The notes below the pieces were generated by a model, which worked only from the letters and a program-made list of their open reading frames with translations, made no database searches and was not told the DNA's origin. Both the position numbers and the translations under genes were made by a program. This document shows, in pieces, positions 7,697-12,303 of a stretch of DNA of 64,000 nt. Numbering within the stretch: position 1 is the stretch's first letter; every line of letters begins with the position of its first letter. The DNA is from Frankiales bacterium (GTDB lineage Bacteria; Actinomycetota; Actinomycetes; S36-B12; CAIYMF01): positions 62,001 through 126,000 of the forward strand of contig WGLY01000011.1 in assembly GCA_016125335.1 (NCBI GenBank), read 5' to 3'.

Positions 7697-10378
7697 GTGA
7701 CCTCGACGCAGGAACGCCCCCGGCTCCTCCTCCTGGACGGCCACTCGCTGGCCTACCGGGCGTTCTACGCCCTGCCCGTGGAGAACTTCTCCACCACCAC
7801 GGGGCAGGCCACCAACGCGGTGTACGGCTTCACGTCGATGCTCATCAACACCCTGCGCGACGAGCGGCCCACGCACGTCGCGGTGGCCTTCGACGTCAGC
7901 CGCACCACCTTCCGCACCGAGGCCTACCCGGAGTACAAGGCCAACCGCTCGACGAGCCCGGACGAGTTCAAGGGCCAGGTGTCGCTGATCCGCGAGGTGC
8001 TCGACGCGCTGTCGATCCCCTACGTCGAGGTCGACGGGTACGAGGCGGACGACCTCATCGCCACCCTCACCACCCAGGCCGAGGACGAGGGGTTCGAGGT
8101 GCTCGTGATCACCGGCGACCGCGACGCGTTCCAGCTCGTCGACCCGGACGTCACCGTGCTCTACCCGCGCAAGGGGGTCAGCGACCTCGCGCGCATGACA
8201 CCGGCGGCGATCGAGGAGAAGTACGGCCTCACGCCCGCGCAGTACCCGGACTACGCCGCGCTGCGCGGCGACCCGAGCGACAACCTCCCCTCGATCCCGG
8301 GAGTGGGGGAGAAGACGGCGTCGAAGTGGGTGCGCGAGTTCGGCTCGCTCGACGCGCTCGTCGACCGGGTCGGCGAGGTGAAGGGCAAGGCCGGCGACGC
8401 CCTGCGCGCCGCGCTGCCCGACGTCATCCGCAACCGGCGGCTCACCGAGCTCGTCCGCGACGTCGAGCTCCCCGTGCGACCGGCCGACCTCGAGCGCCGT
8501 CCCTTCGACCGCGACCGGGTGCACGAGGTGTTCGACGCCCTCCAGTTCCGCGTGCTGCGCGACCGGCTCTTCGCCGAGCACGGCGACGAGGCCGCCACCA
8601 CGGGCGAGGCCGTCGAGGTGCAGGTGGAGTCACCGGCTGAGGGTCTCGGCCCGTGGCTCGCCGAGCACGCCCCCGCCGGCGCACGCACCGGCGTGCAGCT
8701 CGAGGGCACCTGGGGCAGCGGTACCGGCGACGTGGCGGCCCTCGCCGTCGCCGCGCCGGACGGCGCGGTCGCGTGGTGGTCCGTGCCGGCCCTCGACCCG
8801 CAGGACGAGCAGGCGCTCGCCGACTGGCTCGGCGACGAGGCCCGCCCCAAGGCGATGCACGACGCGAAGGGTCCCGAGCTCGCGCTGCGCGCGCGAGGCC
8901 TGACGCTGCGCGGGCTCACCTGCGACACGGCTCTCGCGGCGTACCTCGTCCTGCCGGGGCAGCGCAGCTTCGACCTCAGCGACCTCGCCCCCCGCTTCCT
9001 GCGCCGCGAGCTCGGCGCCGCCGCCGGCGGCGACGACCAGCTCGCGTTCGACACCGACCCGGACGAGGCACGGGCCGCCGCCCTCGGGGCGCAGGCGCGC
9101 GCGGTGCTCGACCTCGCCGACGCCCTCGAGACCGAGCTCGAGACCCGCGGGGGCACGGCCCTCATGCGCGACGTCGAGCTGCCGCTGCTGCACGTGCTCG
9201 CCGACCTCGAGCAGGCCGGCATCGCGGTCGACTCCGACCACCTCGGCCGGCTCGAGGCCGAGTTCGCCGAGTCCATGCGTGCGGCCGAGTCCACCGCCCA
9301 CGAGCTGGCCGGGCGGCCGTTCAACCTCGGGTCGCCCAAGCAGCTCCAGGAGATCCTCTTCGGCGAGCGCGGCCTGCCCACCACCAAGCGGATCAAGACC
9401 GGCTACACCACGGACGCCGACGCCCTGGCCGACCTGTTCGCCCGCACCGGCGACCCGCTGCTCGAGCAGCTGCTGCGCTGGCGGGACGTCTCCAAGCTGC
9501 GGCAGACCGTGACGGGACTGCTCGCCGCCGTGCGTGACGATGGGCGCATCCACACCACCTTCAACCAGATCGTCGCGGCCACCGGCCGGCTCTCGTCGCA
9601 GGACCCGAACCTGCAGAACATCCCGATCCGCACCGACGAGGGTCGCCGGATCCGGAGCGGGTTCGTGGTGGGCCCGGGGTACGAGTCGCTGATGACCGCC
9701 GACTACAGCCAGATCGAGATGCGGCTGATGGCGCACCTCTCGGAGGACGAGGGGCTCATCGAGGCGTTCCGGTCGGGGGAGGACCTGCACCGCTACGTCG
9801 CCTCCCGTGTCTTCTCGGTGGAGCCGGCCGAGGTCGACGCCGAGATGCGCCGCAAGATCAAGGCCATGTCCTACGGCCTCGCCTACGGCCTCTCGCCGTT
9901 CGGGCTCTCCCAGCAGCTCGGCATCGAGACGTCCGAGGCGAGCCGGCTCATGAACGAGTACTTCGAGCGATTCGGCGGCGTGCGCGACTACCTGCACGAC
10001 GTCGTCGACCGCGCCCGCGGCACCGGCTACACCGAGACCATGCTCGGCCGGCGCCGCTACCTGCCCGACCTCACCTCCGACGTGCGCCAGCGCCGGGAGA
10101 TGGCCGAGCGGATGGCGCTCAACGCCCCCATCCAGGGCTCGGCGGCCGACATCGTCAAGGTCGCCATGCTGCGCGTGGACGCCGCCCTGCGCGCCGGCGG
10201 CCTGCGCTCGCGGATGCTGCTCCAGGTGCACGACGAGCTCGTCCTCGAGGTCGCACCGGGCGAGCTCGAGGCCGCCGAGGCCGTGGTGCGCGAGGGCATG
10301 GGCGGCGCGGTCCCGCTCACCGTGCCGCTCGACGTCTCCGTCGGCGTCGGACGGACCTGGGAGGACGCCGGGCACTGA
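7697..10378 (+). CDS. polA: DNA polymerase I
   Basis: An 893-residue family A polymerase for gap filling and primer removal. Residues 1-300 form the 5' nuclease (VITGDRDAFQLV; GDPSDNLPSIPGVGEKTA). The middle 3'-5' exonuclease-like domain lacks the FDTET acidic motif (VQLEGTW stands there), so proofreading is probably lost, as known for mycobacterial and Thermus Pol I. The polymerase domain has motif A TADYSQIEMRLMAHLS near 667, motif B RRKIKAMSYGLAYGLS near 718 and motif C LLQVHDELVLEV near 842. GTG 7697 is supported by the -10 box seven bases upstream. Acts with UvrABC encoded later in the window. Confidence 0.97.
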   Translation: MTSTQERPRLLLLDGHSLAYRAFYALPVENFSTTTGQATNAVYGFTSMLINTLRDERPTHVAVAFDVSRTTFRTEAYPEYKANRSTSPDEFKGQVSLIREVLDALSIPYVEVDGYEADDLIATLTTQAEDEGFEVLVITGDRDAFQLVDPDVTVLYPRKGVSDLARMTPAAIEEKYGLTPAQYPDYAALRGDPSDNLPSIPGVGEKTASKWVREFGSLDALVDRVGEVKGKAGDALRAALPDVIRNRRLTELVRDVELPVRPADLERRPFDRDRVHEVFDALQFRVLRDRLFAEHGDEAATTGEAVEVQVESPAEGLGPWLAEHAPAGARTGVQLEGTWGSGTGDVAALAVAAPDGAVAWWSVPALDPQDEQALADWLGDEARPKAMHDAKGPELALRARGLTLRGLTCDTALAAYLVLPGQRSFDLSDLAPRFLRRELGAAAGGDDQLAFDTDPDEARAAALGAQARAVLDLADALETELETRGGTALMRDVELPLLHVLADLEQAGIAVDSDHLGRLEAEFAESMRAAESTAHELAGRPFNLGSPKQLQEILFGERGLPTTKRIKTGYTTDADALADLFARTGDPLLEQLLRWRDVSKLRQTVTGLLAAVRDDGRIHTTFNQIVAATGRLSSQDPNLQNIPIRTDEGRRIRSGFVVGPGYESLMTADYSQIEMRLMAHLSEDEGLIEAFRSGEDLHRYVASRVFSVEPAEVDAEMRRKIKAMSYGLAYGLSPFGLSQQLGIETSEASRLMNEYFERFGGVRDYLHDVVDRARGTGYTETMLGRRRYLPDLTSDVRQRREMAERMALNAPIQGSAADIVKVAMLRVDAALRAGGLRSRMLLQVHDELVLEVAPGELEAAEAVVREGMGGAVPLTVPLDVSVGVGRTWEDAGH

Positions 10379-10383
10379 GTTTC

Positions 10384-10730
10384 TGTGCCGCTACGCGGCG
10401 GTCGCGCCCTCTCGGGCTTCGCCCTCGGCGGCTCGCCTTCGGCTCGCCGCGCGCGACGGGGTGGGGCGGGAGTTCCAGCGAACAGTCGGCCGCTCGGGCT
10501 TCGCCCTCGGTGCCGCTTCGCGGCACGGGGCCTTGCCTGTTGGCCGCTGTGCGGCGGTCGCGGGGTGCTTTCTGGCCGCTGCGAGGCTGTCGCGCCCATC
10601 TCGGGCTTCGCCCTCGGCGGCTCGCCTTTCGGCTCGCCGCGGCGCGACGAAGTGGGGCGTTGCTCTCGTCGGGGTAGTCGGCCTCTCGGGCTTCGCCCTC
10701 GGTGCCGCGTTCGCGGCACGGGCCTTGTGT
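10384..10730. repeat. Hairpin-rich imperfect direct repeats after polA
   Basis: Two related units (about 10384-10540 and 10571-10730) fill the gap behind polA. The 18-mer CTCGGGCTTCGCCCTCGG occurs four times exactly (10411-10428, 10493-10510, 10600-10617, 10685-10702), followed alternately by CGGCTCGCC and TGCCGC blocks. Each holds stems: GGGC-TTC-GCCC; GTGCCGC-TTC-GCGGCAC (10510-10526) and GTGCCGC-GTTC-GCGGCAC (10702-10719); GCCGC-TAC-GCGGC (10387-10399) and GCCGC-TGT-GCGGC (10543-10555). Copies differ mainly in loops, not arms. Long frames cross the region only because of its GC content; no start, Shine-Dalgarno or conserved domain supports a gene. Confidence 0.85.
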
Positions 10731-10763
10731 TCTCGACGCGGGCTGGGGTTCCTCCCGACACCT

Positions 10764-10838
10764 GGGTTCGGGGTTGCCTGGGGTGCTGGGTCGCGGGGTG
10801 GTTACGGGGGGCGCGTCGGGGTGTGTGGGGGCGGGGGG
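10764..10838 (+). other. G-run tract just upstream of the lipoprotein hydrolase gene
   Basis: Ten runs of three to six G lie on the plus strand in 75 bases, with few C. Together with the repeats it completes the 479-base gene-free stretch 10379-10857. Such a run density could form G-quadruplex structures in the coding strand or RNA. A CACACT box at 10844-10849 lies eight bases before the next start codon and may be its -10. Confidence 0.45.
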
Positions 10839-10857
10839 CGTGCCACACTCACCCGCC

Positions 10858-12303
10858 ATGAGCGCGCTTCGTCGTCCTGCCGCCCTCGTCGTCGTGGCCT
10901 CCGCCGCCCTGGTGCTGTCGGCCTGCGGGTCGTCACCGGACATCCCGCGGGCGCGCATGGTGACCCCCGACGTCGCCTTCCACGGCTGCGACACGGTGAA
11001 GTGCGAGGACACCCTCAACGGCGCGGCCTTCAAGATCGAGATGCCGACGACCTGGAACGGCACACTGCTCCTCTACTCCCACGGGTACCGCTACGCCGAG
11101 CCCGCGCCGCCGGACTTCGCGCCGGTCGACACCAACGCCACGGACGCCTCCGACGACGCGACCGCGAAGGCGCTGCTCGATCAGGGCTATGCGCTGGCCG
11201 GCTCCGCGTACGCCAGCAACGGCTGGGCGGTGGCCGACGGCGTCAAGGCAGCCGAGGACCTGCACACGTACTTCAGCCAGAACATCGGGGAGCCCTACCG
11301 CACCCTGCTCTGGGGCGACTCGCTGGGCGGGCTCATCACCCAGGTGATCGCCGAGAAGCACCCGGAGTGGGTCGACGGCGCTGCCCCGCTGTGCGGCGTG
11401 CTCGGCGGCGTCGTCCCCAACATGGACCTCGCGCTCGACGTGTCCTACGCCGTCAAGACGCTGATCTACCCCGGCCTCAAGCTCACGGGCTACAGCTCCT
11501 ACGAGGAGTCGGTCACGAACTGGACCGAGGCGGTCAAGCGCCTCGTGGCCGCGGCGAAGGACACGGCCGGAGGCGGCACGGCGAAGGTGCTCACCATCGC
11601 CGCGCTGGTCAACGCCCCCCGCCAGACCCAGCACTTCGACGGCTCCACGATCGAGTCGCAGGTGTCGGCCACGGTCGAGGCGCTGGCCACCGCGCTCGGG
11701 TACGCGACCTTCGCGCGCTACGACCTCGAGAAGCGGTTCGGGGGCAACCCCTCCACCAACGAGGGGGTCGACTACGCGTCCCGGATCGACCCGTCCGAGG
11801 CGTCCCTGATCGACGCCGTCACCCCGGGAGCGGCGGAGGCGAACGCGGCAGCCCTGGACGCCGGCACCCGCGTGGCGGCCGACCCGGCCGCTCTCGCGAA
11901 GGCGAAGGCCGACGGCGGCGACCCGCAGGCCACGCTGACCAGGCCCGAGATCACCATGCACACCGCGGCCGACCCGCTCGTGATCGCGCAGAACGAGACC
12001 TTCTTCGAGGACCGCTACCTCGCGGCGCAGAAGGCGGGCACCGCCACGGCGGGGCTCGTGCAGCTGTTCACGGTGCCGCCCGCCACCTACCCGGCCGACC
12101 CGGGTGCTCCCTACGGGGCGGGCCACTGCAACTTCACGTCGCAGTCGCGCGTGGCCGTCATCGACCTGCTCACCCACTGGGTGCAGGACGGCGTCTACCC
12201 CGGCTCCGCCGCGATCGCGGCAGCGATGGGCACCTCGAGCGGCTACGAGGCCGCCTACCGGCCGGGGGACTGGCCGGGCACGCCGGGGCCGCTGGACTCC
12301 TGA
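10858..12303 (+). CDS. Secreted lipoprotein, alpha/beta-hydrolase fold
   Basis: A 481-residue exported lipoprotein. Residues 1-23 are a signal ending in lipobox LSAC. The body is an alpha/beta hydrolase: LLYSHGYRY on the oxyanion side and a nucleophile elbow LLWGDSLGGLITQ (GxSxG, Ser near residue 152), with a late His in AGHCNFTSQ near 424. The acidic member is not certain. Bacterial relatives are annotated as esterases, aminopeptidase-like or tannase-like enzymes; substrate unknown. The ATG lacks a clear Shine-Dalgarno sequence. It lies between the structured repeats and a glycan flippase gene transcribed toward it, sharing a bidirectional terminator. Confidence 0.8.
   Translation: MSALRRPAALVVVASAALVLSACGSSPDIPRARMVTPDVAFHGCDTVKCEDTLNGAAFKIEMPTTWNGTLLLYSHGYRYAEPAPPDFAPVDTNATDASDDATAKALLDQGYALAGSAYASNGWAVADGVKAAEDLHTYFSQNIGEPYRTLLWGDSLGGLITQVIAEKHPEWVDGAAPLCGVLGGVVPNMDLALDVSYAVKTLIYPGLKLTGYSSYEESVTNWTEAVKRLVAAAKDTAGGGTAKVLTIAALVNAPRQTQHFDGSTIESQVSATVEALATALGYATFARYDLEKRFGGNPSTNEGVDYASRIDPSEASLIDAVTPGAAEANAAALDAGTRVAADPAALAKAKADGGDPQATLTRPEITMHTAADPLVIAQNETFFEDRYLAAQKAGTATAGLVQLFTVPPATYPADPGAPYGAGHCNFTSQSRVAVIDLLTHWVQDGVYPGSAAIAAAMGTSSGYEAAYRPGDWPGTPGPLDS

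Follow-up and report, generated by a model that had tools for sequence, protein, structure and literature searches.

What kind of element fills the gap behind polA in this actinobacterial genome, and do its hairpins fold as RNA or as DNA? Hairpins between bacterial genes are commonly taken for RNA terminators or REP elements. The window, by which we mean the whole 64,000-base stretch that was analysed, comes from a 3.93-Mb genome of 41 contigs (contig C11, positions 62001–126000), and the closest relatives of its polA in the genome collection are MAGs, named Candidatus Nanopelagicales bacterium (84%) and Actinomycetes bacterium (82%). Between the polA stop at 10378 and the start of the next gene on the same strand at 10858 lies a gap of 479 bases, of which 10384–10721 is occupied by an array of about ten small hairpins in two tandem units of about 190 bases, the first hairpin beginning 9 bases past the stop. 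The parts follow one another as H1, A1 and B1 within an outer stem, a spacer, A2, C1, H2, H3, A3 and B2 within a second outer stem, a spacer, A4 and C2 (Table 1).

Table 1. Parts of the array and the features on either side of it, in window positions.
Feature	Positions	Strand	Basis
polA, encoding DNA polymerase I, upstream of the array	7697–10378	+	893-aa ORF; relatives by tblastn
H1 hairpin GCCGC-TAC-GCGGC, minus-strand loop GTA	10387–10399		hairpin listing
Left arm GTCGCGC, outer stem around A1 and B1	10401–10407		seen in folds
A1, 18-mer copy 1; minus strand C-GA-GGGC-GAA-GCCC-GA-G	10411–10428		exact match
B1 hairpin; minus strand GCGGC-GA-GCC-GAA-GGC-GA-GCCGC	10428–10450		hairpin listing
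Right arm GCGCGAC, outer stem around A1 and B1	10451–10457		seen in folds
Unit 1 spacer, diverged between units	10459–10492		unit alignment
A2, 18-mer copy 2	10493–10510		exact match
C1 hairpin GTGCCGC-TTC-GCGGCAC, minus-strand loop GAA	10510–10526		hairpin listing
H2 hairpin GCCGC-TGT-GCGGC, minus-strand loop ACA, not GNA	10543–10555		hairpin listing
H3, H copy with broken arm pair	10575–10587		unit alignment, hairpin listing
Left arm GTCGCGCC, outer stem of unit 2	10589–10596		seen in fold
A3, 18-mer copy 3	10600–10617		exact match
B2 hairpin; minus-strand loop GAAA, longer by one base	10617–10640		hairpin listing
Right arm GGCGCGAC, outer stem of unit 2	10641–10648		seen in fold
A4, 18-mer copy 4	10685–10702		exact match
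C2 hairpin, loop GTTC, minus-strand loop GAAC	10702–10719		hairpin listing
CGTGCCANNNT block ahead of the next gene's start codon, candidate −10 of a leaderless promoter	10839–10849	+	relatives
Alpha/beta-hydrolase-like lipoprotein gene (named by eye), downstream of the array	10858–12303	+	first gene call; homologous starts in relatives

The repeats themselves are as the first-pass annotation had described them. The 18-base core CTCGGGCTTCGCCCTCGG occurs in four exact copies on the plus strand (A1–A4), spaced by 82, 107 and 85 bases, and the alternating hairpin modules make up two larger units with offsets of 189 and 192 bases. The exact 18-mer is confined in the window to its four array sites, in agreement with the remark that no second copy was noticed there; when up to three mismatches are allowed, five matches are found where 0.54 are expected, a number that was reached in 0 of 100 shuffles. 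Aligned over 162 columns, the two units are identical in 74 of the 76 columns of hairpins A, B, A and C, with no substitutions and with two indels that both fall in loops, whereas the spacer, compared between units, has 20 identical and 14 substituted columns of 34 and one indel (Fisher p 1e-8 for substitutions in hairpins A, B, A and C versus spacer). The loop changes that had been listed (TTC to GTTC, TAC to TGT and an extra T in the GGCTCGCC pair) all appear in this alignment. That the arms stay intact holds for A, B, A and C, which are free of substitutions between units; it does not hold for H, which has four substitutions in 16 columns and whose third copy, H3, is no longer fully paired. 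Hairpins that stayed alike beside spacers that diverged agree with the structured, non-coding element that had been proposed. Repetitive coding sequence is a most improbable account: open frames do cross the array on both strands, but the copy spacings are not multiples of three and single-base indels separate the units, both of which argue against coding, and a codon-usage gene caller leaves the array intergenic.

The source genome holds the array at a single place. Throughout the 3.9-Mb genome the 18-mer has four places, every one of them in the array, and the 20 genomic places that lie one or two mismatches from the 17-base minus-strand core of A are all within called genes. A candidate second copy, a 17-base match on contig C35, was dropped as it sits in a small ORF (L095, 8503–8820). 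Among 396 genomes of the phylum, only the source genome has the 18-mer. With the array as query against 40 genomes, four gave a match at E 0.001, namely the source genome and three with matches of 27–58 bases that by eye resemble coding DNA, and plasmid and phage records gave short matches only, at E 0.03 or worse. In the genus, polA was found in 10 of 11 genomes (the eleventh, G008, has a weak match only), and the polA–lipoprotein pair is kept in six of nine relatives, with gaps of 53, 58, 64, 106, 108 and 162 bases. The array was not found in any of these six gaps; the first-pass annotation had counted absence from close relatives as evidence against selection for folding, and absence is what these relatives show. 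The gaps fold no better than shuffles (z −1.24 to +1.21 over the two strands). The array was likewise not seen in the readable DNA downstream of polA in G003 and G007, which have another neighbour, and in G006, where that DNA ends 161 bases after polA. In G003 and G007 (L046, L047), a gene on the opposite strand that looks by eye like a methyltransferase follows polA instead of the lipoprotein gene. The CGTGCCANNNT block, which is possibly a leaderless promoter element of the next gene, is identical in four of the six relatives and differs by one or two changes in the remaining pair, and since relatives share it before the next start, the array is an addition made between polA and this block.

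Read on the minus strand, A and B follow one design, stem-GA-stem-GAA-stem-GA-stem, in which an inner stem carries a GNA loop and is joined to an outer stem through a 2x2 GA/GA mismatch. Of the 10 hairpins that are intact, 8 show a GNA or GNNA loop when read on the minus strand, against none when read on the plus strand (9e-9 for independent hairpins and 1.5e-5 for four modules, although the copies are not independent). All of A1–A4, B1 and B2 have such a loop on the strand that carries GA/GA. The 2x2 pair between inner and outer stem is a property of A and B only, C and H being without it, and the outer stem beyond it has five pairs in B1 and B2 and one pair in A. The loop change from B1 to B2 (GAA to GAAA) keeps the GNA/GNNA rule and that from C1 to C2 (GAA to GAAC) breaks it; besides C2, H2 (ACA) is without such a loop, and H3 is broken. 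Compared with shuffles, the minus strand folds better, with an RNA z of −3.8 (halves −2.4 and −3.6) and a modest DNA-parameter z of −1.9, and the plus strand does so to a lesser degree, with −1.5 (halves −1.3 and −0.8) and −1.2, respectively. The direction of replication could not be read from base skew. Simple hairpins are more numerous in other 350-base windows than in the array, and three-base-loop hairpins with stems of at least 5 are not enriched in the intergenic DNA of the source genome (3.5 per kb versus 3.3 per kb coding), those with stems of at least 7 showing a slight intergenic excess (0.56 versus 0.36 per kb coding). Hairpins that combine GA/GA with a GNA or GNNA loop number ten, at the thresholds applied, in 864 kb (about one fifth, the window included) of the source genome, six in the array and four elsewhere.

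Tandem sheared G–A pairs are stable in a 5'-Py-GA-Pu-3' context. A GNA or GNNA loop closed by at least two G–C pairs is described, in the accessible text of the source, as giving DNA mini-hairpins of extraordinary stability (78 C for GCGAAGC) and remarkable nuclease resistance (PMC4686876). The minus-strand loops GAA, GTA and GAAA of the array, closed by G–C pairs, are common to that d(GCGAAGC) type, which as presented there is a chemical or aptamer motif, whereas the polA array is natural and its A and B hairpins carry, besides the loop, tandem GA and an outer stem (PMC4686876). The GNA DNA mini-hairpin motif is already known; what is new is its combination with GA/GA and the recurrence of that combination.

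Recurrence was examined in IMG/VR contigs, which may contain cellular or organelle DNA, for a hairpin class that we define by a GA/GA mismatch and a GNA or GNNA loop on one strand. The 18-mer was found in three of these contigs, and an exact copy of the 23-base B1 hairpin is present in two that were fetched. Duplicate contexts were counted once, and sets (i) and (ii) and the tetraloop set are samples of the matches listed. With outer stem and GA/GA fixed and the loop left free (set i), GNA makes up 44 of 114 contexts among the matches listed (26.2 expected if first and third letters are independent) and TNC 2 (2.3 expected); in the mirror orientation with another stem (set ii), TNC makes up 55 of the 111 contexts listed (36.2 expected) and GNA 4 (1.5 expected). 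Conversely, when outer stem and GAA loop are fixed and the 2x2 position is free (set iii), 21 of 76 contexts are fully paired and 30 have double mismatches, 18 of which are GA/GA. The B form (62 contexts) has TNC 13 times (6.4 expected) and GNA 14 times (11.4 expected; ten from one tandem repeat), and the A form (78 contexts) has a weak loop bias, with TNC 9 times (5.8 expected). Among the 110 tetraloop contexts listed, GNNA occurs 23 times (16.0 expected, a weak bias), GNRA 7 times and TNNC twice. For three-base loops, the coupling of GA/GA and GNA on one strand is strong.

Class members in these contigs tend to lie outside long frames and to have flanks that extend the hairpin. Stop-to-stop frames over them are shorter, with medians of 108–137 codons versus 245–409 in other matches. 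Positions outside frames of at least 100 codons are taken by 11/43 class members versus 5/70 others in set (i) and by 16/55 versus 5/56 in set (ii) (matches listed; both uncorrected p < 0.05), by 3/9 versus 4/68 for the A form (uncorrected p < 0.05) and by 6/13 versus 1/38 for the B form (uncorrected p 6e-4); the difference is not significant in set (iii) (6/18 versus 9/58). Most class members are still crossed by an open frame of at least 100 codons (e.g. 32 of 43), so that intergenic position is only a tendency. Their surroundings are also lower in GC (0.52–0.57 versus 0.59–0.65). Both checks, on frames and on flanking bases, relied on letters outside the search patterns. The next bases pair in 18/43 class members versus 15/70 others in set (i) and in 24/55 versus 12/56 in set (ii), among the matches listed, and in 7/13 versus 6/38 for the B form (uncorrected p 0.011), the differences for the A form (5/9 versus 27/68) and for set (iii) (8/18 versus 23/58, where many of the others are also hairpins) not being significant. 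The pairs added in set (i) are of all four types, so the outer stem varies while its pairing is kept; this covariation is seen across genomes and not within the polA array. One contig (L208 and L239, a tandem repeat) was included in the loop counts of the B set and excluded from its frame and flank counts; a tandem array of the 11-base unit GGCTCGCCGGA stands at one end of both of its stretches.

Among cellular genomes, the set (i) pattern is present in 98 of 246 actinobacterial ones, and among the 150 places listed there GNA occurs 15 times (7.1 expected) and TNC 8 times (8.5 expected), which makes the class rare in actinobacteria; any enrichment in the phylum of the window would be weak at most. 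The B pattern gave, over 198 genomes, five listed three-base loops, the sole TNC among them being that of the source genome itself. Fetching every one of the 15 GNA places and five from the 135 others showed that flanks pair at 11/15 class loci versus 0/5 others, and open frames of at least 100 codons cross 14 of the 15 GNA sites and all five others. We read these matches tentatively, and at a little below an even chance, as members of a scattered class of natural DNA hairpins with a GNA loop, tandem G–A pairs and a free outer stem, which would be found in viral contigs and bacterial chromosomes alike and be kept or recreated for exceptional single-strand stability, the polA array being a local expansion of it.

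Set against known systems, the array is neither a REP element nor a CRISPR array, and it matches no Rfam family: the Rfam covariance models gave no match up to E 1 in 9800–11400, in line with the earlier statement that no known family was recognised. A CRISPR array was rejected on the irregular copy spacings and the repetition of the units themselves. The first-pass annotation had named a REP-like element among its candidates. Short GC-rich palindromes at the 3' end of a gene are what a dispersed palindromic element of the REP/RAYT type would offer, and in the accessible text the GTAG/CGTC-tagged REP elements are alike in being short intergenic palindromes with short loops (PMC3733652). That identity is nonetheless contradicted and can hardly be credited. 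The genome search for the 18-mer returned a single locus in place of dispersal, the Y1 transposase family PF01797 was not matched in the source genome (controls positive in 5 of 14), and the hairpins have no common unpaired GTAG or CGTC tag as defined in that source (PMC3733652). The two-base GA/GA mismatch of A and B, which lies on one strand, is a further difference. GTAG or CGTC tetramers occur on either strand at 10391, 10455, 10646, 10667 and 10674; those at 10455 and 10646 occupy equivalent outer-stem ends in the two units, yet each has three of its four bases paired, and no such tag stands at a shared end in A, B, C or H. The short palindromic repeats of Volvox organelles are likewise non-coding hairpins with loops of 3–5 bases, often nested or clustered, although, as far as the source text consulted describes them, their loops are mostly TAAA/TTTA and they account for about 75–80% of non-coding organelle DNA, whereas the polA array is one locus with GNA loops (PMC2670323). 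Intergenic stem-loops of 40 prokaryotes share the location on the 3' side of coding sequence, and the GA/GA + GNA class is absent from their description in the accessible text (PMC1590033). Perfect inverted repeats in 118,019 genomes resemble the array in having arms more conserved than spacers near terminators; according to the accessible text, that survey took only mismatch-free arms of at least 10 bases, which puts the class outside it (PMC13155455).

Three explanations for the existence and persistence of the hairpins were weighed; they overlap, and the probabilities that we attach to them do not have to add up to one. Folding of the minus strand at the DNA level is the most likely, and we give it about an even chance. 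The array would have grown in the polA–lipoprotein gap by tandem duplication of the unit of about 190 bases, as a non-coding and lineage-specific element whose A and B hairpins follow the recurrent class design (minus-strand stem, GA, stem, GNA loop, stem, GA, stem). From established chemistry, a strand of this design forms, as DNA, a mini-hairpin of high stability that resists nucleases, with G–A pairs where an internal loop would otherwise be. The working form would then be folded single-stranded (or cruciform) minus-strand DNA, exposed in replication, repair or transcription, and the stability of the fold would explain why hairpins persist or are remade as spacers drift. A neutral by-product, in which a chance hairpin was multiplied by replication slippage and template switching and kept alike by hairpin-templated repair without any function, is a doubtful alternative. 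It accommodates the single locus, the lineage-specific occurrence, the tandem duplication and the restriction of indels within the hairpin stretch to loops and hinges; template-switch correction would be expected, however, to remove GA/GA, and GA/GA persists in every copy of A (four) and of B (two) and recurs elsewhere, which argues against this account.

An RNA element of the plus strand, serving as a multi-hairpin terminator or stabiliser where the polA transcript ends, seems unlikely to us. In its favour, the array starts soon after polA and stops short of a conserved promoter-like block that belongs to the next gene, the plus-strand RNA hairpins are strong (C −13 to −14 and B −14 to −15 kcal/mol), and two terminator-like sites are present where 0.8 are expected. 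Both of these sites are weak (five pairs), however, the plus-strand fold reaches a z of just −1.5, the lack of an Rfam match and of any unusual fold in the gaps of relatives counts against a transcript-level role, and the bias of both loops and GA pairs is toward the minus strand. GNRA is the tetraloop that RNA favours, and it is not favoured in the class (7 of 110 tetraloops among the matches listed), which points to DNA rather than RNA. If minus-strand DNA folding does act in the cell, its effect might most probably be that of a barrier between the polA transcript and a separate promoter of the next gene. Should the class follow the rules of single-stranded DNA (GNA loops and GA/GA), DNA-folding sites in chromosomes would become testable from sequence alone, and the class, if real, would supply a search rule that perfect-palindrome surveys overlook.

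The GA/GA + GNA class is not named in the literature that was searched, as far as its texts were accessible, most subscription journals lying outside that coverage. The published terminal inverted repeats of an archaeal virus contain the class core, in the part of the source consulted (PMC10342651), and by our own reading of those letters it could form a class hairpin. Several arrangements of class hairpins were also seen at other loci. In L176, one of the three IMG/VR contigs with the 18-mer, class hairpins at 1841–1861 and 1945–1967 stand in opposite orientation with 83 bases of an AT-rich stretch between them. Among the 15 GNA places of actinobacteria, those in G136 and G084 include hairpins whose outer stems, 4–7 bases long, pair perfectly and differ in sequence around one core. 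Those of G136 have the core GAGCG(A/C)AGCGA within different perfect outer stems (L949 at 1548, L950 at 1362 and 1533, L951 at 1486 and 1513), the two in L951 being separated by 2 bases. A longer element, TCAT followed by the hairpin CCCGAGCGNAGCGAGGG and an overlapping ATCT, spans two actinobacterial genomes of different families (L953 at 7, L954 at 1579, L956 at 1546) and three IMG/VR contigs (L405, L410, L426), as if it were carried by one dispersed family.
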